Of a DNA stretch of 64,000 bases, positions 24,898 through 58,900 are shown in pieces. The notes under the pieces were generated by a model. The model made no database searches and had not been told where the DNA came from. It saw only the letters and a list, made by a program, of their open reading frames with translations. Origin of the DNA: Deuterostichococcus epilithicus (lineage: Eukaryota > Chlorophyta > Trebouxiophyceae > Prasiolales > Stichococcaceae); assembly GCA_033439295.1 (NCBI GenBank), contig JAVTLE010000016.1, positions 1,364,001 to 1,428,000 on the forward strand, in the 5' to 3' direction. How positions within the stretch are numbered: position 1 is the stretch's first letter; every line of letters starts with the position of its first letter. The translations under genes and the position numbers were made by a program.

Positions 24898-26561
24898 ATG
24901 CTTTCCAGCCAGCTGAGCAGTCAGCAGGTGATAAGCCACGGCAATGGCGTGCTGAACCAGCATTTCAAGCACAGTTTGACATGACTGCCAGCAGATCAGG
25001 CAGCCAGCGCACTCGAGCGCGTGCACAGACAGTGCCTCCAGCTTCTTCGCAATCCCGCAGGTAGTGGGATGCAGGCCCTTCCGGCGCGCTAGCGGGCAAA
25101 CTGGCGCAGGCCGTCGGGCGCAGACCGCGCGTCTTGCCCGCTGCGCTGCTGGTGCGGCCCCAGAGGCGGACGTGCAGCCCAGCCGACGCGCCGCGCTGCA
25201 GGCCGCGGCAGCCGTAGTGGCCGCTACACTGACCAGCGGGTGCAGCAATCTTCACCATATTCCTGGGCATTTACGTTCTGCCCTCGGGCCACAGCACCCA
25301 CGCAGACGGAACACCGGTAGATGGGTGCAACGTTGCGCAGTCTGCACTACATCGTGTTGGCGCCGCAGGGCGACGCAGAGGCCATGCCAGGGCGTGCCTT
25401 CCCTCTGGAGCCTGTTCTTGACCCTGCCTTCACGCACAGGCCGTCCGCAGCGCTAGCAGAGAGCCCGCGGGACATGGGCGCGATGACCTCGACTGAGGGC
25501 GACAAGCTGCTGATTGACGCGGCGGCAGAAAAGGACCTGGAGGGGAAGCCTCGCATCACCACGGCCTCCGGCCTGGAGTACCAGGAGCTGGTCGCCGGCA
25601 AGGGTCCCACCCCCACCGTTGGCATTCAGGTGTGTGCTGCGATTTGCTGATCCTGCAGCTGCCACACATGAGGCCAGGGGCAGTAGCCTCAGGTCCTGCA
25701 TTCTCTCTCAGGATGGCAACGGTTTCGCGTGCAGCAGCGGCTTTGTCAATCATGGTCTTCAGATTGAGAGGCCTCCATGGCAGATTCAGCCAGGTGCATG
25801 GGGTTGGAAGGAAAGGCCTTGATGCTGACTCTGCAATGCCAATGTCAATAACCCCACTGCCGCATGGCAAGCGCATTAAAGAACCGCGCCCTGCAGATCG
25901 TGCGCACCTCAGCTTAGTGTACATGTTGCAGGTCACCCTCCACTACGTTGCAAAAACCCCCAATGGCAAAATATTCGACAACAGCCTGGCCAAGGGGGCA
26001 CCCTACTATGTGCGTGTGGGCAGTGGCGCCGTGGTGCCAGGCCTGGACGAGGCTCTGCTGTCGATGCAGACAGGCAGCATCCGCCGTCTGTACATCCCCG
26101 GTGACCTCGCCTTCCCCAAGGGCCTGGCCTCCGCCCCCGGCAGGTGCGTTCAAGGCGGGTATTAGCACATGCACTGCATCCCGCTGCGGCAAGTTTGATG
26201 TCTGCAGAGAAAGCAGTCGCTAAGGGAGTTTCAAAACAGGAAAAGGTTGTGGGAACGCTCATCTGTGGATGCCGCCTCCTGCCTCGCTGCAGCTCTGTCG
26301 CCAGGTCGTTTGCCTGACATGCCTGCCATCAGGCATCATGTGCGTCGATCTGTCTCATTACAAACTTGATCACGCAGGCCCAAGGTGCCGCCGAAGAGCC
26401 CCGTGGTGTTTGATGTCCAGGCAAGTACAAATCCATGGCGCACCTGCATCTCTGCTGCAAAGCTGCTTCACGAGGGACATGCTGAGAATGCTGACAATGT
26501 CGATGCCAATGTGCAGCTTGTGTACATCCCTGGCATTTCTGACGACCTCGAGTTCGAGTAG
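24898..26561 (+). CDS. FKBP16-3: Thylakoid-lumen FKBP peptidyl-prolyl isomerase (FKBP16-3-like)
   Basis: Immunophilin of the chloroplast thylakoid lumen; the family catalyses or mimics cis-trans isomerisation at proline and assists photosynthetic complex assembly. Exons: 24898-24927 (tentative), 25061-25239, 25440-25629, 25932-26143, 26378-26420, 26517-26561 (699 nt, about 232 aa; Arabidopsis FKBP16-3 is of similar size). A basic transit-like N-terminus is followed by a twin-arginine signal (SRRAALQAAAAVVAATLTSG) and, across the splice, PSAALA|ESPRD, a classic AxA lumen-processing site. The FKBP core includes VTLHYVAKTPNGKIFD, VVPGLDEALLSMQTGSIRRL, YIPGDLAFPKGLASAPGR and the C-terminal VYIPGISDDLEFE. 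The intron after 26420 has a GC donor (CAG|GCAAGT). The first exon and start codon are the weak points: the open frame at 25061 has no in-frame ATG. Confidence 0.85.
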
Positions 26562-27479: not shown

Positions 27480-30400
27480 ATGTTGAGGCTGCCCAAGCGC
27501 TCACTCGCCGCCATGCTGTCAGCGCTCCCAGCGACTCCCGCACATGGTGCCAGCCATGCCTCACGCACTGCACGCGGCCTGTCGGCGTGCACGTCCAGCC
27601 ATCTTCCAGGATTGCATCAGCCTGCACACCGTAACGCTCAGAACTGGCAGGATGCCGCAGACGCCTTGAGGAGACAGTCTAGCCGGGGCTGCAGCACGAG
27701 AGCCGCTGTGGCGGCGGCCTCCTCCGCTGCTGGCCCACAGCAGGTGCAGCACCGGTTTGCACCCCGGAGGCCGTTGCGGGTTGACGCTTTGCGCAACCTC
27801 ACAACAGACGCAGTGTGCATGACTGTGCAAGCAGCAATGCGGACCGTGCACGTCTCATCTCAGGGCGCACTGCCGGCGCAGGGCACGGGCGGCAGCCAGC
27901 ATGGCGCTGCAGCAGCAGCCAGCAGCCAGTGGTACGACGAGGAGGACTACGACGTGGTCGTGGTGGGCGGCGGCCACGCAGGATGCGAGGCGGCGCTCGC
28001 ATCATCGCGTACCGGCGCCAAGACGCTGCTGCTGACGCTGAACCTGGACCGCATTGCCTGGCAGGTGCGATACGCGCCAGGCGTGGCATGGTCGTCTCTA
28101 TCAACCTCACTTCTGCATAGGCAGGGCCGAGGGATTGGCCATGGCGTGCGGCCCAATGTGAAAGCGCAGCCTGACGATGGTCTGATGAGGGCCACATTGT
28201 AGCACACCGTGATGAGCTTGCAATGCAGCTTGCTGTTTATGACTGCGGTCTGCTGCTCTGAACCCCTGCCGGCGACACGCAGCCATGCAACCCTGCGGTC
28301 GGCGGGCCGGCCAAGTCGCAGCTGGTGCACGAGGTGGACGCCCTGGGAGGCGAGATTGGCCGCATGGCAGACCGCTGCTACCTGCAGAAGCGCGTGCTCA
28401 ACCGCTCGAAGGTGCCTCACAATAACCATGACATCCACTCTTGTGAATGCCAGCTGCTCACTCTTGGCAGCGATACGAGTCAGGCTGCATGGAGAACATG
28501 CGATATGAATTTGCGTTTGCGGCTGGGCTGCTGCAAGCCTCGCGAGCACCGGCCTCAGCTCATGGCACTAGGCTCCACGTATGCGCAAGACAATGCGCAG
28601 GACAGCTCAATTGAGACCTGCAGTTCCAGACAAGCTGTGCATAACCACTGCTCCACGCAAGCGCAGGGGCCGGCGGTGTGGGCGCTGCGGGCGCAGACGG
28701 ACAAGATCGAGTATGCGACGGTCATGCGGCGCGTCCTGGAGGCCACGCCTAACCTGTTTCTGCGGGAGGGCATGGCCGTTGACCTGGACATAGGACCCAA
28801 CGACGAGGTGAGACTTCGGGCTTGTCGCGTCCTTCCGGCCCTGCGAGCTCCACGCCGCTGCACTAGTTGAATATGCACGATGTGGTGAAGTTCAAGCTCA
28901 AGAACATTGACAAGGACGCAGGCCGCATTTTGCACATTTGGCGTGGAGCACTTACTGCCTCCTGTTCCTGCCGATTGAGCTGAGTCCACATGATGTACCG
29001 ACTCACGAGGCCATCATCTCTGCGGGTACAGGTGCGTGGAGTGCGCACCTTCTTCGGCATCACCTTCCGGTGCCGCGCGGCGGTGGTCACGACAGGCACC
29101 TTCATGAACGGGCGCATCTGGGTTGGCCGCCAGTCCATGCCTGCCGGCAGGTGGGCGACATCCTCTGCGCACCGCCAATGGCTGATGCCCAATTGCGTGT
29201 ACAAGCTCTTATCACATGCAATAGCTGCAGGGCGGGCGAAATGCTGGGCACAGGGTTGTTTTTTGCGGGTGGCACCACTGACCACTTGCGACCAACCCTG
29301 GCAACCTGTCCCACGCATCAACTGCAGGGCGGGTGGGAGCGCTGAGGCCAGGGCTGCCGGAGGCGCAGGCGGCTTTGTAAGCTGGATGTGTTATCAAGAC
29401 CACATGTGGCAGTAATTGCAGGGCGGAGAGGGCACCCAGCACGGGGCCGATGGATTCGCTGATTCATGCTGTCAAGTCAATCTGAGCGTATCATCTCTAA
29501 TCACATGTCACCCATTACAGGGCGGGCGAGGCGCCGAGCACAGGGCTGACGGAGGCGCTGGTGGCGCTCGGCTTCGAGACGGACCGCCTCAAGACGGGCA
29601 CCCCCTCCCGCGTCGACGCGCGCACCATCAATTACAGCCAGCTGGAGGAGCAGGCCGGCGACGCCGACGTCCGCTGGTTCAGCTTTGACCCGGAGGTGAG
29701 CGTGATACTTGTCACGCGCGCAGGGGAAGATCCTGCAGGGTTGCCGCCCGGAGGTGGGACAGAAAGTTGTCGAATACTTCGTGCGCGGGGGTAGAAACCG
29801 CGGGGCAGCCGCCATGACTCTGTCAGGAACCCGGAACCTGGCAGTGGCGAGTTGATACGCGTCCAGTCGGCACTTTTCTCGTGCTGCAGGCCATGCAAAT
29901 AGTGCCAATCAAATGTTCCCGTTTCATGCGCCATGGATCAGTGCATACCTCTTCCGGCAGGTGCACGTGGAACGACCGCAGATGTGCTGCCACCTGACAC
30001 ACACGACGCCAGAGACGCACCGGCTGATAGAGGAGAACCTGGCAGAGACCCCCGTGTACGGCGGCTGGATGGACTCCACGGGGCCCCGCTACTGCCCCTC
30101 CATCGAGGACAAGATCGTGCGCTTCAAAGATAAGGCCAGCCACCAGGTGCGTCTTGTCTGCAGTGTCTACCAGCATCAGCGGCCGAGTCATTCCGCAGGG
30201 TTGTATGAGGCAATCTGCAGTGCGGCATGGCTGCGCATGGGCGTGCGGCCGGTTCCGATGTGCATCCTGGCCTCTCTGTTGGGAGCAGTTGGGGACAGCA
30301 TCCGGACGCGAAAGAGTCGCAGGGACAGCATCCCACTGATGCCGCGGTGCCGGTGCCGCAGGTGTTCCTGGAGCCAGAGGGCCGCCACAGCCCGGAGGTG

Positions 30401-33400
30401 TACGTGCAGGGCTTCTCCACCGGCCTGCCCGAGCGCCTGCAGCTAGCGCTGCTCCACACTCTGCCCGGTGCGCACAGCTGCTGTTCACCCGTTTTACCAT
30501 CGCATGGGAGGCGAAACTCGCAGCGCGCACATGCACAAGCAGACCTGCCAGGCAGCGCGGCATCTGTAACCGTCATCTCTGCTGCTCTTGCACTGGATTG
30601 ATGTGCTGCATCACCAAGCGTGCTGCCCACATCGTTCACGATGCTCTGCGCCACCCTGCGGCCGGAGGACCAGCCCCTTGCACATCCGGCGCGTGCAGCG
30701 AAAGGCCTGTCGGGACCGTCTGTCGGCGTGCCGCCACCAGCCCAGCCTGCCGGTAGCTGGATGTGTCCGAAGCAGCCTTGCAGCATGCATCTGATGCCGA
30801 CGCAGACCTGGAGGAGTGCGAGATGCTGCAGCCAGCGCATGCGATGGAATGCGACTCATCTGCTTGAAACGTTCTGAGAATGTTTCAACACCGACATGGC
30901 AACACCCGACTGCGCCACAGGCCTGGAGGAGTGCAAGATGCTGCGGCCGGCGTACGCAGTGGAGTACGACTACCTGCCGGCGCACCAGTGCTCGCCCAGC
31001 CTGCAGACCAAGCGCATTGGGGGCCTCTTCTTCAGCGGTCAGCTCAATGGCACGACAGGTTCGGCGCCACCTGGTCTGCTTGCCTGAGTGTGTTGACGGA
31101 GACCTGCATTGCCTGCCCAGAGTTGCGTCCCGACCTCGATGACCGCCCCGGGCAGCCAGCTGACTTCAAGGAATGTGTAGTTCAGCCAGTCAGGTAGGTC
31201 TACCACAGCTGAGACCCACCTAGCGCTGTGATGGTGCGGCGGCAGCGACGCTGCAGACACGAAGAGAAGGCTGTTGCAATGCTGACCCGGTTGTGGACCG
31301 CTCTACAGGCTTTTGAGAACATGGCAGCGCAGGGACTGCTAGGGAGCGACCACGCGGCGTGTGCCGCGCGGCAGATGTGGGAGTAATGCTGCTGCTGGGC
31401 TGATTCGACTGGACAATTTGATGCCGCTGCAGGCTACGAGGAGGCGGCGGCGCAGGGTCTGGTGGCGGGCATCAACGCGGCGCGCGTGGCGGCGGGGCGG
31501 GAGGTGGTCACCTTTTCCCGGGAGTCTAGCTACCTGGGCACCCTCATCGACGACCTGGTCACCAAGGTTTGGGTGTTGTGGGCTGAAATGACCGAAAGAC
31601 TGAAGTATCGCAGCAAAGGGATTGAGACGTCCTGGAAGCCCGTGCCAGGCAGGGCTTGTGCGCGAGGGTGTCGGCTGGGGGATTGTGGCTGAGCGCATCT
31701 TGCAAGGAACTGCAGAGTGCACAGTGCGACAGTGCAACTCCAACGGCATTGGGGTTGCAGTTAACTCGGTACTTGCTCCGCCTCCTCAAATGGGTGATGG
31801 AGGCTCGACACCAGCCCGACTGCAGTTCACCTTCAAACCACTGTTCAGTCATCTTCATGCCCCTTCCCCTTGGCGCTCAGGACCTGCGGGAGCCGTACCG
31901 CATGCTGACCAGCCGCTCCGAGTTCCGGCTGATACTACGATCGGACAATGCAGACGCGCGGCTGACGCCGCAGGGGCGGCAGCTGGGCCTCGTGGATGAC
32001 CGCCGCTGGGCGCTGCACCTCGCCAAGCAGGTTAGCTCACGGTGGTTGATTGCTGTCTCGCATGTCTGGTAGTCTGTGACCGCCCTGGGCTGGCGCTGCA
32101 CCCTGCCAAGCAGGTTGGCAGCGGTCGGGGGGTGTGGAATGTCATGGTAGTCGTGAGGAGCAGTGGCAGAGAAGCGATGATGGGACAATGATATGCTCTC
32201 GACATTTGTGTTTGTGACCACCCCCGGGCGCCTGGCCGCAATCAGAGATGCCAGTCTTGTTGGCAAGTCTTCAGCGGTCAGCTCAAAGCTTGATAAGTTT
32301 CTCCTGCTGCAGGAGCGTATTGAGGCAGAGCAGGCGCGCCTAGCGTCCATACGGGTGCAGCCGGATGCGCCCGTCGCGCTGTCAGCGGCGGCGGTGTCCG
32401 GGCAGCCGGTCACAGGCGTCATCAGCCTGCAGGATATTCTGCGCCGCCCGCACGTGCACTACCCGTGCGTCTTTTGCTTCGCTCCTTTCCGACATCGAAC
32501 GCAATGAGGCTCAGCCCAGGGATTGAACGACGTTGCTCGTGCGTATATTGCATTTCGCAAACCGCTGGCACGTGCCATGCATTCACACCCTGACGTGTGT
32601 TGCCATGCATCATCTAGCGCCTCCTTTCAATAGTTGCGCTGGCGCACACGTCGTCCACACGGGTTTCACAGCATCATGCCGGCTCGTGGGCTCTGCGAGA
32701 TGCGTTCCTGTCTATACACTGTGGCAGAATGCTGGAGGCGCACGGCGTTGGCGGCGCGGTGTCGCCCAGCGAGGCCGAGGCAGCAGAGATCCACATCAAG
32801 TACTCGGGCTTCATCAAACGGCAGGTCGGTGCCTTTGCACCTGCTGCAGCTTCCTGCTGTAGCTTCTCGCTATCTGAATATGTGTGTCTGGGCAGCCTGA
32901 ATCGCGTGGTCCAGTGCGGCAGTCGCCCAGCAGCTGCCAGTCGCTGCATGTTGTTGCAGTGGCGCTCCTGCCAACAAGGAAGCGCGCCAACTGCGAGCAC
33001 CAATTCGTACCCTTGGCCCCCCTTGCGGCAGTGATTTCCAGGAGCTTCGAAAGACTGTCCCTATCAAATCAAAAATGGCGCCCCTGCGTGTTGCGCAGGC
33101 GCAGCAGCAGGCGAGCGTGGCAGCAAAGTCGATGCGGTTGTTGCCGCCGGACCTGGACTACCACTCCATCGGCACTCTGTCCATGGAGGCCCGTGAGAAG
33201 CTGTCCAAGGTGTGCTAAGAAACGCCTTTGAGTCGATGTCATCAAGGAAGTTCAAACGATTTTGTTGCTTGAACGCCCGTTATCCGGTCCCCTTCGTGTG
33301 AGTCCTGGTATCCGTTCGAGCTGGTCATCGATGAGCTCATAAATAAGCGGTGCCATCCTGATTGCAAATGCTAGATGGGGAGCGAGCTCCACGCTGCAAG

Positions 33401-34339: not shown

Positions 34340-34620
34340 TCGCTGCAATTTGCTGAGGGAACGAACGGAAAGGGCGTCGAGCAGACCAAAACGACATCGG
34401 CAACCATGTCCAGTCATAGACTCATGTGCCACAGCACCCGCGGATAAACCCAGTAAACCCCGCGCAGACATACAGGACCAGTTGCGCACAAAGCGCCGAG
34501 CCCTCTGGCTCGCTGGGACCGGAAACGCCGTGAGGCGCCCTGCATGCTGGTGGAAGCAGACCAAACACAAAAGCCAAGGACTGAAAAACACATGCTAGGC
34601 CTAACCCCCCGCTGCCAAGG
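34340..34620 (-). mobile_element. Partial LINE 3' UTR copy
   Basis: About 270 bp that closely match the neighbouring segment 34725-35000 in the same orientation: shared blocks around the GAGGGAACGAACGGAAA-like start, the CCATGTCCAGTCATA stretch and the CATGCTGGTGGAAGCAGACC stretch. It is a tandem partial duplication of the retrotransposon 3' UTR. It lacks the terminal hexamer tail, so it probably arose by local duplication rather than a separate insertion. Confidence 0.7.
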
Positions 34621-34631
34621 CTGCGGGATGC

Positions 34632-35549
34632 CTTGGACTTGGACTTGGTTACGTACTGTGCAGTCAAGTGGCTGACTATAGCACAGGCCCGAAGGCGGTC
34701 AGAATGCGCAACAGCAAGCGACAAGCTGAGGGAACAAACGGAAACGGCGTCGAGCAGACCAAAACGACATCGGCAACCATGTCCAGTCATAGAGTCATGT
34801 GCCACAGCACCCGCGAACCCAGTAAACCCCGCGCAGACATACAGGACCAGTTGCGCACAAGGCGCCGAGCTCTCTGGCTCGCTGGGACCGGAAACGCCGT
34901 GAGGCGCCCTGCATGCTGGTGGAAGCAGACCAAACACAAAAGCCAAGGACTGAAAAACACACGCTAAGCCTAACCTCCCGCTGCCAAGGCTGCGAGATGT
35001 CTGACTGCGCAACATGCCTAAAGTGCCCCCGGCACCTGAGCTAGCCGCTCCCATCGCAGGATTCCGCGAGCGCTATGGCACACCACTCCGAAACCCAACA
35101 CAGAAAATGAAATCGCCATCTACCCCCATGCCGACTCCAAAAGTCCCGACAGCAAGGTGCCCTCTGCCTCGAAAGCATGATGATGATAGGCCTCATTGAG
35201 AGCTCGAGCCCCAGCCCTCTAGCTCCGCGCAGCGATCGGCGCAATGCCGCAGAAACACCCCCAAGCTGGCAGGGTCCTGCTGCATGAACGCCTCGACTGT
35301 GGCGTCGCCCCGGCTGAACAACTCCACGTGCTGGAGGCGCTGGTCTAGCAGAGCAGAACAACCCCTGAGCATGTGCTCTGCGTCATCAACCTCGCCGCTG
35401 TCGCAGCGCTGACAGCTGCGCTGCTCGCGCGGCAGACCGGCCCACCGCCCTGTCTCCACCCGCAGCCAATGGGAGCCGGTGCGAAACTGCGCCAGCCGAA
35501 CGCGGCCGGTCCTGGAGGCCACCGCCTGCAGATACATAGCTGGTTCGTA
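34632..35549 (-). mobile_element. Short LINE copy (C-terminal module and 3' UTR)
   Basis: Minus-strand, 0.92-kb LINE fragment. It starts (5') at the codon block YEPAMYLQAVASRTG, includes the Cys-rich CQRCDSGEVDDAEHML segment and stop, then the 3' UTR, ending at the (AAGTCC)n tail at 34632-34650. It abuts, head to head, the plus-strand LINE starting at 35550. The same 5' boundary is seen in the copy at 45446 and at the junction at 40886. Confidence 0.8.
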
Positions 35550-38540
35550 GGCAGGTTCGACTCTTTCGTTGAGCGCACGCAGGCACAGGTGCTGGCGTCG
35601 CAGCCGGCCGCCAAGGGGCGGCGGCGCGGCGCCAAGGAGCAGCCAGACTGGTGGGACAAGGAGCTGGCCGACGGCCGGCGCGCAGCGCGGCAGGCCATGC
35701 GCAGCGATCCGCGTTCGCACGCGGCTCGCGCGGCGCGCGCTGAGTACCAGCGCGCGCTGCGGCGCAAGCTGAGCCGCTGGACGCGCAGCCAGGCCATCGC
35801 CCTCCTCACCCTGGCCAGGCCAACCCGGCGCGCTTCTGGGGCAAATTCAAAGTTGCCAAGAAGCGTGTCTGCGCTGTGCCTGATGATGCCATGGCTGACT
35901 ACTTTCGTGATCTGCTGGGGCAGCAGCCCGTCATCCCTTCTGATGTGCAAGAGGACCCGACAGCCGACGCCGGCGCCGCGCCACCAGCCGCAGATGATTC
36001 CGAGTTGAATGTGCAGTTCACAGGTGCCTCTGTCACCAAGGGCATTGAGTCCCTGCATGGTGGCAAGTCAACTGTGGGTGTGCTTAAGCTTGATGCTCTC
36101 TCTGTTGCTGCTGCTGAGCTCGCGCCGTGTCTTGCTGCCGTCTTCAATGCTTGCCAGAGGGTGGGGGCGCTGCCGCGCGCTTGGGCGCTTTGCGGCATCA
36201 CCCCCATCCACAAGGGTGGCGACGTTACTGACCCTGGCAACTACCGCGGCATCGCGGTGGGCTCTCTTTTAGCAAAGCTGTACGCTGCGATGCTCAACGA
36301 GAGGCTCATGGAGTGGACCGAGCGCCACGGGCTGCGTGCCCGCGGACAGGCTGGCTTCCGGAGGGACCACCGCACCACTGACCAGGTGTTTGTGCTCCGC
36401 ACGCTCATTGAGCGAGCCCGTGCAGAAAAAAAGCCATTGTATGTATGTTACGTTGACTTCAAAAAAGCATATGACACCATTCCACGTGACGTGCTGTGGC
36501 ACAAACTGCAGCGCATCGGGGTGCATGGGGACTTCTTGCGGGCGGTGCAGGCTTTGTATGCGGAGGTGCCCATGGGGGTGCAGTTTGCTGACGGCATGTC
36601 TGCCACGTTCGATTCCCTGCTAGGTGTGAAACAGGGCTGCCCACTTTCTCCAACCCTGTTTGGCATCTTCATTGATGACTTCCAGGCTGAGCTCGAAGCC
36701 GGCTCCGCCGGCTTCGCTCTTCCCACACTGTCCGGCGTGCAGACGCCGGCGCTCTTCTACGCGGACGACCTGGCACTGGTGTCCACCACCGTCGCCGGCC
36801 TGCAGGCGCAGTTGGACCTCTTGCAGGCAAACAGCAAGCGCTGGCGGCTTACCGTCAACGTCAAGAAGACGAAGGTGGTGGTTTACACCACCGCATGCGG
36901 CGCGGTGGCGGCGCCACAGCTCACCTACATGTCCGCCCCCATCGAGGTGCTTGACACGTTCAGGTACCTGGGGGTTGACCTGCACAGCACGAAGCCATTT
37001 GCTTCGAGCGCAGCGGACCGGGCGGCGTCCGCCCGACGCGCCGCGCTCGCACTGCATAATCGCTGTCGTGATCTCAGGCTGCATGATCCTGCACTGCTCA
37101 TGCATCTTTTTGACGCACTTGTGCGCCCGGTGATGCTGTACGGTGTGGAGACTTGGGGGCCTGGGGCGCTGTGTGGCAAGGCCAGCGGCATGGAGGCTTG
37201 TGAGAAAGTGCAGAGGAGCTTTTTGCGGGCTCTTCTTGGCGTGCGTGCAGGCACGCCCAAGGCGGCGCTACTCGGCGAGGCGGGCTTTGAGGCGGCGCAC
37301 ACAGCAGTGACGCTGATCTGCCGCTTCTGGAACCGGCTGGTGGACATGCCTGACGCGCGGCTGACCAAGCAGGCCTTCCTCGAGAACGTCAGCATGGCCG
37401 GCCGCGGCGGCGGCATCCACTCGGCCTGTTGGGCTGCCCAGGTGGCCTCGTTCCTGGACTTCATGTCCCCCATTGTTGACGGTGTGCCGCAGCACATCGA
37501 CCCTGACGCAGCCACGGCGGTGCTGCAGCGCCGACACTTTAAGTCGGTGAATGGCAGCGATGCCCGCAAGGTACGCGAGTGGCTGCAGATTCGGGGCCCT
37601 TTGGCTTTTGGTGCCTACGAACCAGCTATGTATCTGCAGGCGGTGGCCTCCAGGACCGGCCGCGTTCGGCTGGCGCAGTTTCGCACCGGCTCCCATTGGC
37701 TGCGGGTGGAGACAGGGCGGTGGGCCGGGTCTGCCGCGCGAGCAGCGCAGCTGTCAGCGCTGCGACAGCGGCGAGGTTGATGACGCAGAGCACATGCTCT
37801 GGGGGTGTTCTGCTCTGCTAGACCAGCGCCTCCAGCACGTGGAGCTGTTCAGCCGGGGCGACGCCACAGTCGAGGCGTTCATGCAGCAGGACCCTGCCAG
37901 CTTGGGGGTGTTTCTGCGGCATTGCGCCGATCGCTGCGCGGAGCTAGTGGGCTGGGGCTCGAGCTCTCAATGAGGCCTATCATCATCATGCTTTCGAGGC
38001 AGAGGGCACCTTGCTGTCGGGACTTTCGGGGCCGGCATGGGGGTAGATGGCAATTTCATTCTCTGTGTTTGGGTTTCGAAGTGGTGTGCCGTAGCGCTCG
38101 CGGAATCCTGCGATGGGAGTGGCTAGCTCAGATGCCGGGGGCACTTTAGGCATGTTGCGCAGTCAGACATCCCGTAGCCTTGGCAGGGGCAGGTTAGGCT
38201 TAGCAGGTGTTTCTCAGTCCTTGGCTGTTGTGTTTGGTCTGCTTCCACCAGCATGCAGGGCGCCTCACGGCGTTTCCAGTCCAAGCGAGCCAGAGAGCTC
38301 GGCGCTTTGCGCGCAACTGGCCCTGTATGTCTGCACGGGGTTTACTGGGTTTACCCGCGGGTGCTGTGGCACATGACTCTATGACTGGACATGGTTGCCG
38401 ATGTCGTTTTGATCTGCTCGACGCCCTTTCCGTTTGTTCCCTCAGCATGTTGCTTGCTGTTGCGCATTCCGACCGCCTTCGGGCCTGTGCTATAGTCAGC
38501 CACTTGACTGCACAGTATGTAACCAAGTCCAAGTCCAAGC
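35550..38540 (+). mobile_element. Non-LTR retrotransposon (LINE) copy 1, 5'-truncated
   Basis: Three-kb LINE remnant: linker region (PDWWDKELADGRRAARQAM), reverse transcriptase, Cys-rich C-terminus, 3' UTR and an (AAGTCC)n tail near 38525-38540, immediately followed by a minisatellite. There is no endonuclease or ORF1, so it is 5'-truncated. It is nearly identical to the inverted copy at 40888-43733. Confidence 0.9.
35876..37970 (+). pseudogene. LINE reverse transcriptase, frameshifted copy
   Basis: Encodes the reverse transcriptase of a non-LTR element, which would copy the element's RNA at the insertion site. Visible RT motifs: PGNYRGIAVGSLLAKLYAAM, GQAGFRRDHRTTDQVF, VCYVDFKKAYDTIP, GVKQGCPLSPTLFGIFIDD, the catalytic LFYADDLALVS and a YLGVDL-type motif. 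Compared with the inverted copy, one base is missing near 35813 (frame lost before the FWGKFKVAKK block) and one base is gained near 37728 (frame lost just before the Cys-rich CQRCDSG segment). This copy is therefore interrupted at both ends of the RT and cannot make the full protein. Confidence 0.9.
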
Positions 38541-38545
38541 CACCC

Positions 38546-39486
38546 GCCACCCGCCACCACCACCCGCCACAGCCCACCACCCGGCACTCCCCACCATCCA
38601 CCGCTCACCGCCACCTGCCGCCTACCACCTGCCACTATGCTCTCTACTAGCTTGCCACCCGACACCCACCGCCCGTCACCCGCCGCCATCCGCCACCCGC
38701 CACCCGCCGCACAAACAGTGCTCTGAACACACGCCACCGCCCACNCAGTGTTTTCGAACACTCACGACCACCCATCACTCACCACCCCTCGTCTCTAGCC
38801 GCCACCTGCCGCCGCTTGCCACCTTCAGCGGCCACCTCCTGCCACCACCCACCCGCCACCACCACCCGCTGCAGCCCACCATCCACCGCTCTCCGCCNCT
38901 TGCTGCCGCCACCTGCCACCTGNCACCTGCCGCCTACCACCTGCCACCTACTTCTTTGTTGGCTTGCCATCCGGCACCCACCGCCCGTCACCCGCCGCCA
39001 TCCGCCAGCCGCCACCCGCCACCACCACCCGCCACAGCCCACCACCCGCCACTCCCCACCATCCACCGCTCACCGCCACTTGCCACCTGCCACCTGCCAC
39101 TTGCCACCTGCCGCCTACCACCTGCCACCTGCTTCTTTGTTGGCTTGCCACCCGGCACCCACCGTCCGTCACCCGCCGCCATCCGCCACCCGCCACCCGC
39201 CGCACAAACAGTGTTTCTGAACACTCGCCACCGCCCACACAGTGTTTTCGAACACTCACGACCACCCATCACTCACCACCACTCGTCTCTAGCCGCCACC
39301 TACCGCCGCTTGCCACCGTCAGCTGCCACCTCCTGCCACCCGCCACCCGCCGCCACCACCACCCGCCGCAGCCCACCACCCGGCGCTCACCACCATCCAC
39401 CGCTCACCGCCACTTGCCGCCTACCATCTGCCACCTGCTTCTTTATTGGCATGCCACCCGGCACCCACCGTCCGTCACCCGCCGGT
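38546..39486 (+). repeat. CCACCCGCC minisatellite array
   Basis: Degenerate 7-10-bp units (CCACCCGCC, CCACCTGCC, CCGCCATC) with a higher-order pattern: a TTCTTTGTTGGCTTGCCA-type block recurs near 38640, 38950, 39130 and 39440, and GTGTTTTCGAACACTCACGA near 38749 and 39241. Unresolved bases (n) at 38745, 38898 and 38923 show assembly difficulty. Long open frames in this array are composition artefacts. Confidence 0.9.
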
Positions 39487-55952: not shown

Positions 55953-58900
55953 TCAGTAGGGGCGATAACGCTGTGCGCCCATGTTACCGCGGCCGGGGGC
56001 AGCACGTCCGTATGAGCCCTGCCCGCTGTACCCGCCGCTGCCGTCACCATAGCCGCCAGCGGCGCCGGCGCCGCCGCCATACCCTGGACTGCCACCACCG
56101 TAGGCGCCAGCTACGCCCGCGCCGCCGCCGTAGCCGGCCCCGCCGCCATATGCCGCGCCGGCGCCTGCGCCGCCGCCATAGCCCCCGCCGCCGCCATACG
56201 CCGCGCCGGCACCCGCGCCACCGCCGTAGCCACCCGCTTGGCCGCCAGCACCGCCGCCATAACTGCCCGCACCTGCGCCGCCGCTAACGTCTGCGCGCAC
56301 GCGAGGCTCTGCTCGGTCGCTAATGGCACAGGCGTCATGGAGTGTGCCCATAGTCTGCTGCGACAGCGCTGGCCTGCACCCAAGGCTCGAGTGCACTGGA
56401 TGCTCAAAAGGCTCGGGGACTGATCAACAAATGATGCAGGTGGAGCAGCATCTGAAATGATGGGCCTTGGTCCGGTGGATTGATGAACTTGGAGGTGGAG
56501 GGGGTTTGAAGGATCTCACCGTAGCCGCTGCCGCCGTTCTCGCCGTACGCAGCCCCATAGCCAGAGCCCTGCTGCGGCTGGCTGTAGGAGCCGCCGCCGC
56601 CATTGCCGTAGTTGCCGCCCATGCCGCTGACGGCTGCCATGCCGCCACCGCCCATGTGGGGGCTCATGCCGCCGCCAGCCATGCCGCCGCCGTAGCCGCC
56701 GCCAGTCATGCCGCTGCGGCCACCCATGTTGCCGCCATACCCGCCCATGCCGCCCTGCTCGGCAGCACAAAAATCTGACTTAAAATCGCGCTGCAACAAC
56801 GGCAGCTCAAGCTGTCAATGTAAATGACGAAAGGCAATGATCTGTGAAGGACTAAACGAGGTTACAACAGCTGGCACAGCGCTGCGACAGAGCAAGCTCA
56901 CCAAGTTGCCGCCCATGCCCACCATGTTACCGTATCCGCCCATGCCGCCCTGCACAATGCGACTGCCCGGGTCAATGACAGGACAACAGGCGCACGTATA
57001 GTGCAGAAGTTCACTGACATCTGCACCGGCTGCTGGGTGTGGAATTCGTGTATGAGAAGCGCATCGTGTGCTGTCTAGTAGTGCAGCTGGTATGTCTCGT
57101 GCAGCCCGGAAACAGTGTGAAGAGGGGCTTCCTTGATCTTGCAGAAACAGCGCACCATGCCGCCGGCCATCTGGTCGTTCATGTGCGGGCTCATGCCGCC
57201 GGCCATGTTACCCATGCCCATGCCGCCAAAGCCGCCGCCGCCAGCGGCCATGCCCATGCCGACGCCGGCCATGCCGCCACCCATGAAGCCACCGCCGCCA
57301 CCATAGCCAGCGCTGCCTGTGCGCATGCCGCCGACCATGCCGCCGCCACCCATCATGCCGCCCATGCCGCTGACCATCATCTGTGGCTTCGGCACCTGCG
57401 GATCAAAGTAGACAAGCTGTGCTTTACCCCAGTGATTACACGCGTCTGTTTGGTAGGTCCGGAACAGAGATGGCTGGCGCGCAACAAAACCGAGCCCAAA
57501 ATGTGCAGTCCGGCAGCAACGATCATCGCGCACTTCAAACCCTGCAGGTGCGGCAGAATCGGTATGGTTCACCAGCACCAGCACACCCGATCAAATGAAT
57601 GTTGCGCCGCCTGCGCAAGGAGTGAGGGGAGAAGGGTCCTCGTTAAAACACCTGACACCGATTGCAGACGTCCCGCCAGCCAAAGTTCTTGTTCCTGCAC
57701 TCTGGGCAGTGCCAGTCGGGCGCCTTTCCGGTGCGGGCGGCATAGCTCTGGTCGTAGCCTGCGCCCGCCGCCATGTCCTCCTTCTTCACGGCCCGCTTCA
57801 CTTCCACCTGCAGATGAGGCAACACAGCTGCATGAGCAGAAAGTCATCTGGCATCACCGCACGCGGTCACCCCTGGCTGAAAGACCATGTGAGACGAGAG
57901 ACGCTGACAGGAACTACATGTGGAAGTAAAAGGGCAGGAAGGTTCGCAGCCCAAAGCTATTCAGCAATGCCCCGGGCGACTGCATGCAGACTGAAGATGC
58001 ACAGCGGCAGCAAGGCTCTATCGCAAACCGTCCAGATGTCCTTGCTTACTGTCACATTACACTGCAGCACAGACACACATGACGTTACCTACCGTCTTGC
58101 CAGTGATGGTGTGCGTGACGACGAGGCACTTCTCCACCATCGACTCGTCTCTGTAGGTGACAAAGCCAAAGCCGCGCGACGTGCCGTCTGGCTTCCTCAG
58201 AATCTGCGTAAATTAGGTAACAGGTGAGACGATGTCTTAGATTACACATGGAGATGGCGCAAGAGCAGCAGCTTGCTGCAGCTGTTCAGCAACGAGTTCT
58301 CAATGCGCCAAGGCAGGCGCGCACCACACAGTCCTCGATGTCGCCAAACTGCGCAAAGTGCTGCCTGAACTCTTCCTCGCCGATGTCGCCCTGCGATGCG
58401 CGGTCATAGCAGCGTTACGTTAGTGAAGGGCTTGGACACTGCTTGGCTGGGACGCTGCTGGCTGTAGGCCAGCAGCTCTGCCCGCTCCCGGCATGCACCT
58501 TGTGACGCCTGCATGTGCTTGGCCTTGGCGCAGCGCACCGTGCCGCCAACAAACATCTTGCGGGTGAGGCCGCTGCTGCCGCCAGCGTTCTTTGGCACCG
58601 CCGCCTTGGCCTCAATCTTCTTGTTGTCGAGCTCGTGGTCTTTCTTCTGCGCCAAAGGAGGCAAGATGTAAACTGCGCGTGCCCACGACACACTGATATG
58701 CAGCTGTTATTCGCGTAGTTGGTGCGGAGGTGACCGTGTCTGGATGCACAAGCCGCGACTCACCTCAAGGAAGGCCTGGGCGCACTGCGGGTCTGCATAC
58801 GTCACAAAGCCAAACCCGCGGCCGTCCATGAGCACGATGTCTGACATCTCGCCCCTGCAGCGGCATAAACGATGCATTGATTGCCCGCAGCTGTCTCGCG

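Follow-up and report, generated by a model that had tools for sequence, protein, structure and literature searches.

Green-algal introns are sometimes strikingly long for compact genomes. The 64,000-nucleotide stretch of algal DNA analysed here (the window) contains a predicted MnmG (GidA) gene whose fourth intron raises the question of how such introns may grow. Ahead of the acceptor of exon 5 it holds three additional copies of the start of that exon, arranged as a ladder (Table 1).

Repeated exon starts in MnmG intron 4

The CAG preceding each of the three unused copies (hereafter ghosts) begins at positions 29228, 29325 and 29419, and that of the true acceptor at 29518. The resulting spacings of 97, 94 and 99 nt confirm the positions of the four copies reported in the initial annotation. 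Similarity is not confined to the CAG/GGCGG core (the slash marking the junction): alignments to exon 5 cover 28 nt for copy 1 (score 16), 46 columns for copy 2 (score 26) and 40 nt for copy 3 (score 18). When the same stretches were compared with 380 other exon starts, the best scores were 12, 18 and 13, and none of the 380 equalled exon 5 at any of the three copies. BLAST self-comparison of the MnmG gene recovered pairs of ladder units with E values of 8e-7 to 2e-5. The junction reads TGCAG/GGCGG at all three ghosts and TACAG/GGCGG at the true acceptor.

Table 1. Predicted features of the MnmG locus (window coordinates)
Feature	Position	Strand	Details
MnmG (GidA) gene	27882–33218	+	Home-made HMM gene finder and protein homology; coordinates predicted, 5′ start provisional
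Predicted exons 1–7	27882–28064, 28283–28411, 28667–28807, 29032–29150, 29521–29695, 29961–30146, 30362–30467	+	
Predicted exons 8–13	30921–31058, 31433–31566, 31881–32030, 32313–32464, 32728–32824, 33099–33218	+	
Predicted intron 4	29151–29520	+	370 nt; contains ladder
Ghost copy 1 of exon 5 start	29231–29258	+	AG 29229–29230; acceptor 5.24 nats
Ghost copy 2 of exon 5 start	29328–29373	+	AG 29326–29327; acceptor 4.57 nats
Ghost copy 3 of exon 5 start	29422–29461	+	AG 29420–29421; acceptor 4.91 nats
True exon 5	29521–29695	+	AG 29519–29520; acceptor 4.13 nats; Pfam match continuous across junction
Ghost of exon start at 30921	30807–30863	+	Intron 30468–30920; lag 115; score 33; identity 0.81; BLAST E = 2e-9
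Ghost of exon start at 31433	31323–31368	+	Intron 31059–31432; lag 123; score 20; identity 0.72
Ghost of exon end at 32030	32077–32113	+	Intron 32031–32312; lag 83; score 20; identity 0.82

Coding sequence had been said to continue from the last copy alone, and protein comparison bears this out. Joined exons 4 to 11 match the Pfam family GIDA (PF01134; E = 9.7e-99, residues 1–264 of 352), the match of the spliced peptide crosses the exon 4/exon 5 junction, and splicing at any of the three ghost acceptors is predicted to yield an in-frame premature stop. Ghost copy 3 keeps the frame of exon 5, but stops intervene. The description of the upstream acceptors as dead finds no support in the motifs themselves, all three of which score above the true one (Table 1). 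Each of the four units does retain an AG, whereas the CACATG attributed to every unit is present in three (at 29213, 29401 and 29502) and replaced by CCCACG in the second. The proposal that the intron grew by duplication across its boundary with the exon, the upstream copies then decaying, draws support from the near-equal spacing, the partly shared intron tails and the frame-breaking decay, as well as from the presence of the same pattern elsewhere in the genome (see below). Read from the sequence of the locus, MnmG intron 4 would represent a three-step example of junction-spanning duplication.

The gene finder introduced a false 30-nt exon (29724–29753) into an otherwise continuous MnmG structure. 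It also fused MnmG with an upstream gene (window 24898–26420), which by eye resembles an FKBP-type prolyl isomerase. A possible fifth copy, at the donor of intron 4, was rejected, as an equally high score against the start of exon 5 is reached by 63 of 517 other donors. This particular intron does not qualify as a dispersed introner-like element either: a search of the alga's own genome with positions 29150–29700 of the window, in which very common words are skipped, returned the segment itself and no other match.

Three further MnmG introns carry ghosts (Table 1). Three of the four ghost-bearing MnmG junctions lie inside the GIDA match, as calculated from the predicted proteins. The region of the ghost of the exon at 31433 gives a 140-nt BLAST alignment at a lag of 118, and the ghost of the exon end at 32030 runs straight into a ghost donor at 32114 (gttggc). 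The two additional duplicated stretches seen in the self-comparison of the gene (lags 115 and 118) led us to survey further contigs.

Exon-edge copies in four contigs

The survey covered 304 kb of the 46.8-Mb, 21-contig genome, taken from four contigs: the window (C14:1364001–1428000), two blocks on C1 and C3 that total 200 kb, and a 40-kb block on C5. Genes were predicted with a home-made two-strand HMM trained on the same 304 kb, which converged on 692 exons and 577 introns with strong signals at both donors (AG/GTG.G) and acceptors (GCAG/G). The predicted introns have a median length of 219 nt, and the 450 that were tested, one of 228 nt. These 450 were drawn from 621 intron records, the requirement being a minimum length of 60 nt for the intron and 40 nt for each flanking exon; 171 records were left out. 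Each intron was queried with the 60 nt of exon adjoining it on either side (the end of the upstream exon and the start of the downstream one); 40 foreign edges per side served as control.

At a score of at least 18, a same-strand copy of one of its own exon edges is present in 33 of the 450 introns, 20 copies deriving from the start of the downstream exon and 13 from the end of the upstream exon. The number expected from foreign edges is 0.08 on the donor side and 0.10 on the acceptor side (0.18 in total). Reverse-complement copies reaching the same score in the 450 introns number zero on the donor side and one on the acceptor side. MnmG accounts for four of the 33 introns, the ladder intron and the three mentioned above. 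By block, copies are found in 4 of 70 introns in the window, 19 of 151 in C1, 7 of 168 in C3 and 3 of 61 in C5. If the sample is a fair one, extrapolation to the whole genome gives about five thousand copy-bearing introns. The C1 block is richer in such introns than the other three together (14 of 299), a hint of regional variation.

Of the 17 predicted genes that bear ghosts, 9 supplied ten peptide pieces for comparison with Pfam, and all ten match conserved families (GIDA, tRNA_Me_trans, Phos_pyr_kin, TMP-TENI, Topoisom_bac, Amino_oxidase, Mito_carr, Pyridoxal_deC, CLP_protease and RRM_1). Reading the models by eye, we found ghosts that the HMM had called exons, so 33 is a low count. Within the C1 block, copies of neighbouring exons were called as exons at about 56689–56752, 68276–68454 and 78382–78554, in the MnmA, ThiD and mitochondrial-carrier genes; as a result, the protein models repeat the adjacent segment in garbled form.

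The copies lie at a characteristic distance from their source. When local self-hits were located without recourse to gene models and labelled by the models afterwards, their number per 100 nt of lag was 65–70 at lags of 80–120 nt and 30 at 120–140 nt, falling to 0.15–0.2 beyond 1000 nt. An ungapped scan yielded 30 pairs against none in a cross-block control (2 x 100 kb), and a scan of 555 individual intron regions yielded 58 pairs against one in the control, both sets including non-edge pairs such as short-period repeats and protein repeats. Informal inspection of the printed lags revealed no clear preference for frame.

Copy-bearing introns are also the longer ones, with a median of 374 nt as compared to 224 nt for those without a copy. 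Copies occur in 25 of the 94 introns of at least 300 nt and in 8 of the 356 shorter ones; below 160 nt the figure is 1 of 86. Greater length is the expected residue of growth by one or more units, and the association suggests that introns lengthen through local duplication across splice junctions.

What is copied is the edge of the exon. Sixty-nucleotide windows at the edge have a copy for 19 of the 427 exons lying downstream of the intron and 13 of the 421 lying upstream (32 in total), as against 1 of 849 windows lying deeper. For the 26 of the 33 copies that have a lag below 160 and an exon part longer than 15 nt, the median lag is 109, the median exon part 48 nt and the median intron part 6.5 nt; the unmatched spacer in this same class has a median of 57 (interquartile range 48–65). 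Three places show homology over a whole period: the MnmG ladder, a multi-copy array of period 104 in C1 (149 nt at 80%, intron parts included) and a full-length, intron-internal 119-nt pair in C3 (94%).

Once in the intron, the copies are free of coding constraint. In 453 codons they differ from their exons by 148 non-synonymous and 60 synonymous changes, and only 2 of their 23 insertions or deletions are multiples of three. Splice motifs were counted by hand in alignments reaching the junction. One of the 33 ghosts could not be placed, and in seven of the remaining 32 the alignment stops short of the junction. Among the rest, 11 of the 15 acceptor ghosts retain AG and 9 of the 10 donor ghosts retain GT. 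Preferential destruction of the ghost splice motifs is not seen in the scored set.

Origin of the copies

We consider it probable that these patterns stem from recurrent tandem duplication of 80–140 nt spanning splice junctions, one copy being spliced and the rest fossilised in the intron. A short local duplication with a unit of roughly this size would cross an exon-intron junction. Where it spans an acceptor, the last copy would be spliced and the earlier ones left in the intron; at a donor, splicing would use the first copy and leave the later ones in the intron. The mRNA would remain unchanged and the intron would gain one unit, while the unused exon edge, often with a consensus splice site, would decay neutrally. 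Since a duplication within an exon alters the protein, survival is to be expected of those that span junctions. We favour the view that the latter are tolerated because splicing of the intact exon remains possible, and that neutral decay ensues. The occurrence of single ghosts in the same lag range as the whole-period arrays argues for tandem duplication. Selection of the right splice site may perhaps operate via exon definition, which we propose because a ghost amounts to half of an exon and carries a single splice site.

As for the duplication step itself, fill-in repair of staggered breaks is a plausible mechanism. Small tandem duplications are described as arising through fill-in by Pol alpha-primase at breaks with 3′ overhangs (PMC8355091). 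This general source of short direct duplications is a candidate mutational mechanism here; the data presented in that report concern mouse cells, induced breaks and overhangs down to 43 bp, and make no tie to the alga or to splice junctions in the portion relevant here.

The duplication model was confronted with a simulation of neutral tandem duplications of 80–140 nt, run with substitution and indel rates of our own choosing and with age fits that proved unstable. At a ghost identity of 0.80 the model predicts similarity on the intron side, with mean scores of 11.4 for acceptors and 10.7 for donors; for ghosts of a somewhat greater age than their identity implies (0.25–0.35), the acceptor prediction drops to 7.97. 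Donor ghosts behave about as predicted, scoring 9.0 against 6.2 in the control (p = 0.0005; 13 of 13 tested). Acceptor ghosts do not: in the 19 of 20 that could be tested, the 50 nt upstream of the ghost and of the true junction have a mean score of 6.21, identical to that of mismatched pairs (6.21; p = 0.70). Furthermore, for every 33 edge copies the model produces 11–20 detectable intron-internal pairs, whereas two to four were observed, depending on whether pairs within ghost-bearing introns are counted. It also has about 23% of edge copies (140 of 618) reach exon positions 60–120, as against 0 of 29 observed. Either intron halves diverge much faster than the exon halves of the ghosts, or the decay of ghost edges is slowed (through function or gene conversion), or many events copied the edge alone. 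Given self-chosen rates and unstable age fits, we regard the misfit as a serious difficulty that falls short of refuting the model.

The last of these options can be formulated as a separate explanation, one that we hold to be rather unlikely. It posits that repair or template switching places a splice site and some 35–80 nt of exon edge into the intron, non-contiguously, with an unrelated spacer, typically of about 57 nt, between the copy and the junction. Such copying would account for the end of intron-side homology near the junction and the narrow spacer, for the acceptor ghosts devoid of intron-side similarity, for the scarcity of intron-internal duplicates, and for several young copies (86–89% identity) that are only 36–53 nt long at lags of 90–116. 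It does not sit well with the full-length tandem arrays found at the same lags in MnmG, in the period-104 array and in the 119-nt pair. Break-repair templated insertions are expected in both orientations, and all but one of the copies scoring at least 18 are direct. In its broadest form, which we consider doubtful, this explanation would have the edge and its splice site copied into the adjacent intron, about 57 nt away, by a junction-linked process (transcription- or splicing-linked DNA repair, for instance) and not by random tandem duplication, and would make this process the builder of much of the intron length in this alga and possibly in other green algae with long introns.

That the ghosts are maintained for a function, serving as decoy or poison sites that regulate expression via premature stops, or as alternative acceptors, appears improbable. 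The MnmG ghost acceptors do outscore the true site, each leading to a stop, the AG and GT counts given above are high, and ghost edges seem better preserved than intron flanks. Nonetheless, survival of the motifs is just mildly above what a ghost identity of about 0.8 predicts, and the edges decay as neutral sequence, accumulating indels and non-synonymous changes. De novo intron birth according to the Rogers model, in which an AGGT-bearing exon segment is duplicated so that donor and acceptor are copies of one another, is very improbable. The MnmG donor, CAG/GTGGGCGA, bears a superficial resemblance to the start of exon 5, CAG/GGCGGGCGA, a match equalled by the 63 other donors already mentioned, and copies are rare in introns shorter than 160 nt. 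We give almost no credence to the idea that the pattern is an artefact produced by faulty gene models, by protein domain repeats or by coding sequence of low complexity. The models are indeed ab initio, some ghosts appear on reading by eye to have been called exons by the HMM (e.g., in the MnmA, ThiD and carrier genes) and some exon-exon self-hits are protein repeats. Against this stand the near-zero foreign-edge and reverse-complement controls, the lag peak that is visible without gene models and the Pfam matches of all ten peptide pieces; ghosts miscalled as exons, moreover, lower the count.

Precedents and implications

Tandem duplication across splice junctions, the reading we prefer, has a precedent in the potato RdRp gene, in which a tandem duplication is described that spans an intron-exon boundary with its acceptor, part of the former exon now lying in an intron; the same report describes an 83-bp tandem duplication within an intron of the gene (PMC4974935). 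As in potato, a direct copy of the exon edge and splice site lies beside the original, here in 33 of 450 introns. In the potato account, a single event in a single gene created a new intron and the duplicated exon piece is kept in the mRNA. In the alga, existing introns are lengthened, the pattern recurs genome-wide and donors are involved as well. A duplicated intron part of the potato type is found in the MnmG ladder, in the period-104 array and, on average, in the donor ghosts; on average it is not seen in the acceptor ghosts. As one boundary-crossing case is published, the alga's pattern may be viewed as a pervasive variant of a known event.

Tandem genomic duplication is also presented as a mechanism of intron gain (the Rogers model; Hellsten 2011; Gao and Lynch 2009) in a review (PMC3443670). 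The two situations share a duplication within a gene whose extra copy is hidden by splice sites. They differ in that the review's model turns an AGGT-bearing exon segment into a new intron, whereas the copies reported here sit within older, longer introns and call for no new one. For MnmG intron 4, a newborn intron of the Rogers type was rejected as well, since 63 of 517 other donors have a flank that fits as well as its own, a result that applies to this intron only. Genome-wide recurrence, lengthening instead of creation of introns, involvement of both donors and acceptors and the narrow lag set the alga's pattern apart from tandem genomic duplication within genes.

Exon-like copies that go unannotated in adjacent introns are likewise reported for tandem exon duplication and mutually exclusive exons (PMC9013439). 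The location is alike; unlike those, the alga's copies are confined to exon edges and show no coding constraint. Duplication of whole, constrained exons was rejected on account of the single hit in 849 interior windows and the 148 non-synonymous versus 60 synonymous changes. Within the open-licence literature searched we found no description of genome-wide exon-edge copies in introns, a weak negative.

A comparative study of Chlamydomonas gives median intron lengths of 198–343 nt and, in the part bearing on this point, does not settle what drives intron length (PMC8226300). If the duplication reading is right, intron growth becomes testable inside one genome, with 33 of 450 introns as readable growth fossils. 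Gene finders would need to be wary of exon-edge ghosts, which may be called exons, and the ghosts would offer natural test cases for how the spliceosome passes decoys whose motifs are equal to or better than the true ones.

Other repeats were noted in the window. Positions 34352–35002, predicted to be intergenic or near a gene end, hold a 282-nt direct duplication (95% identity, lag 373), and positions 38539–39484 a long CCACC-type minisatellite with a higher-order repeat of 181 nt. Elsewhere in the assembly, contig C21 carries plastid psaA and psaB, psaB matching photosystem I chains in the PDB, of which the best-ranked recognisable entries are green-algal. The psaA match (C21 139151–142539) is split in two, the parts lying about 1.2 kb from each other and having in-frame stops where they end, as a psaA intron would give.
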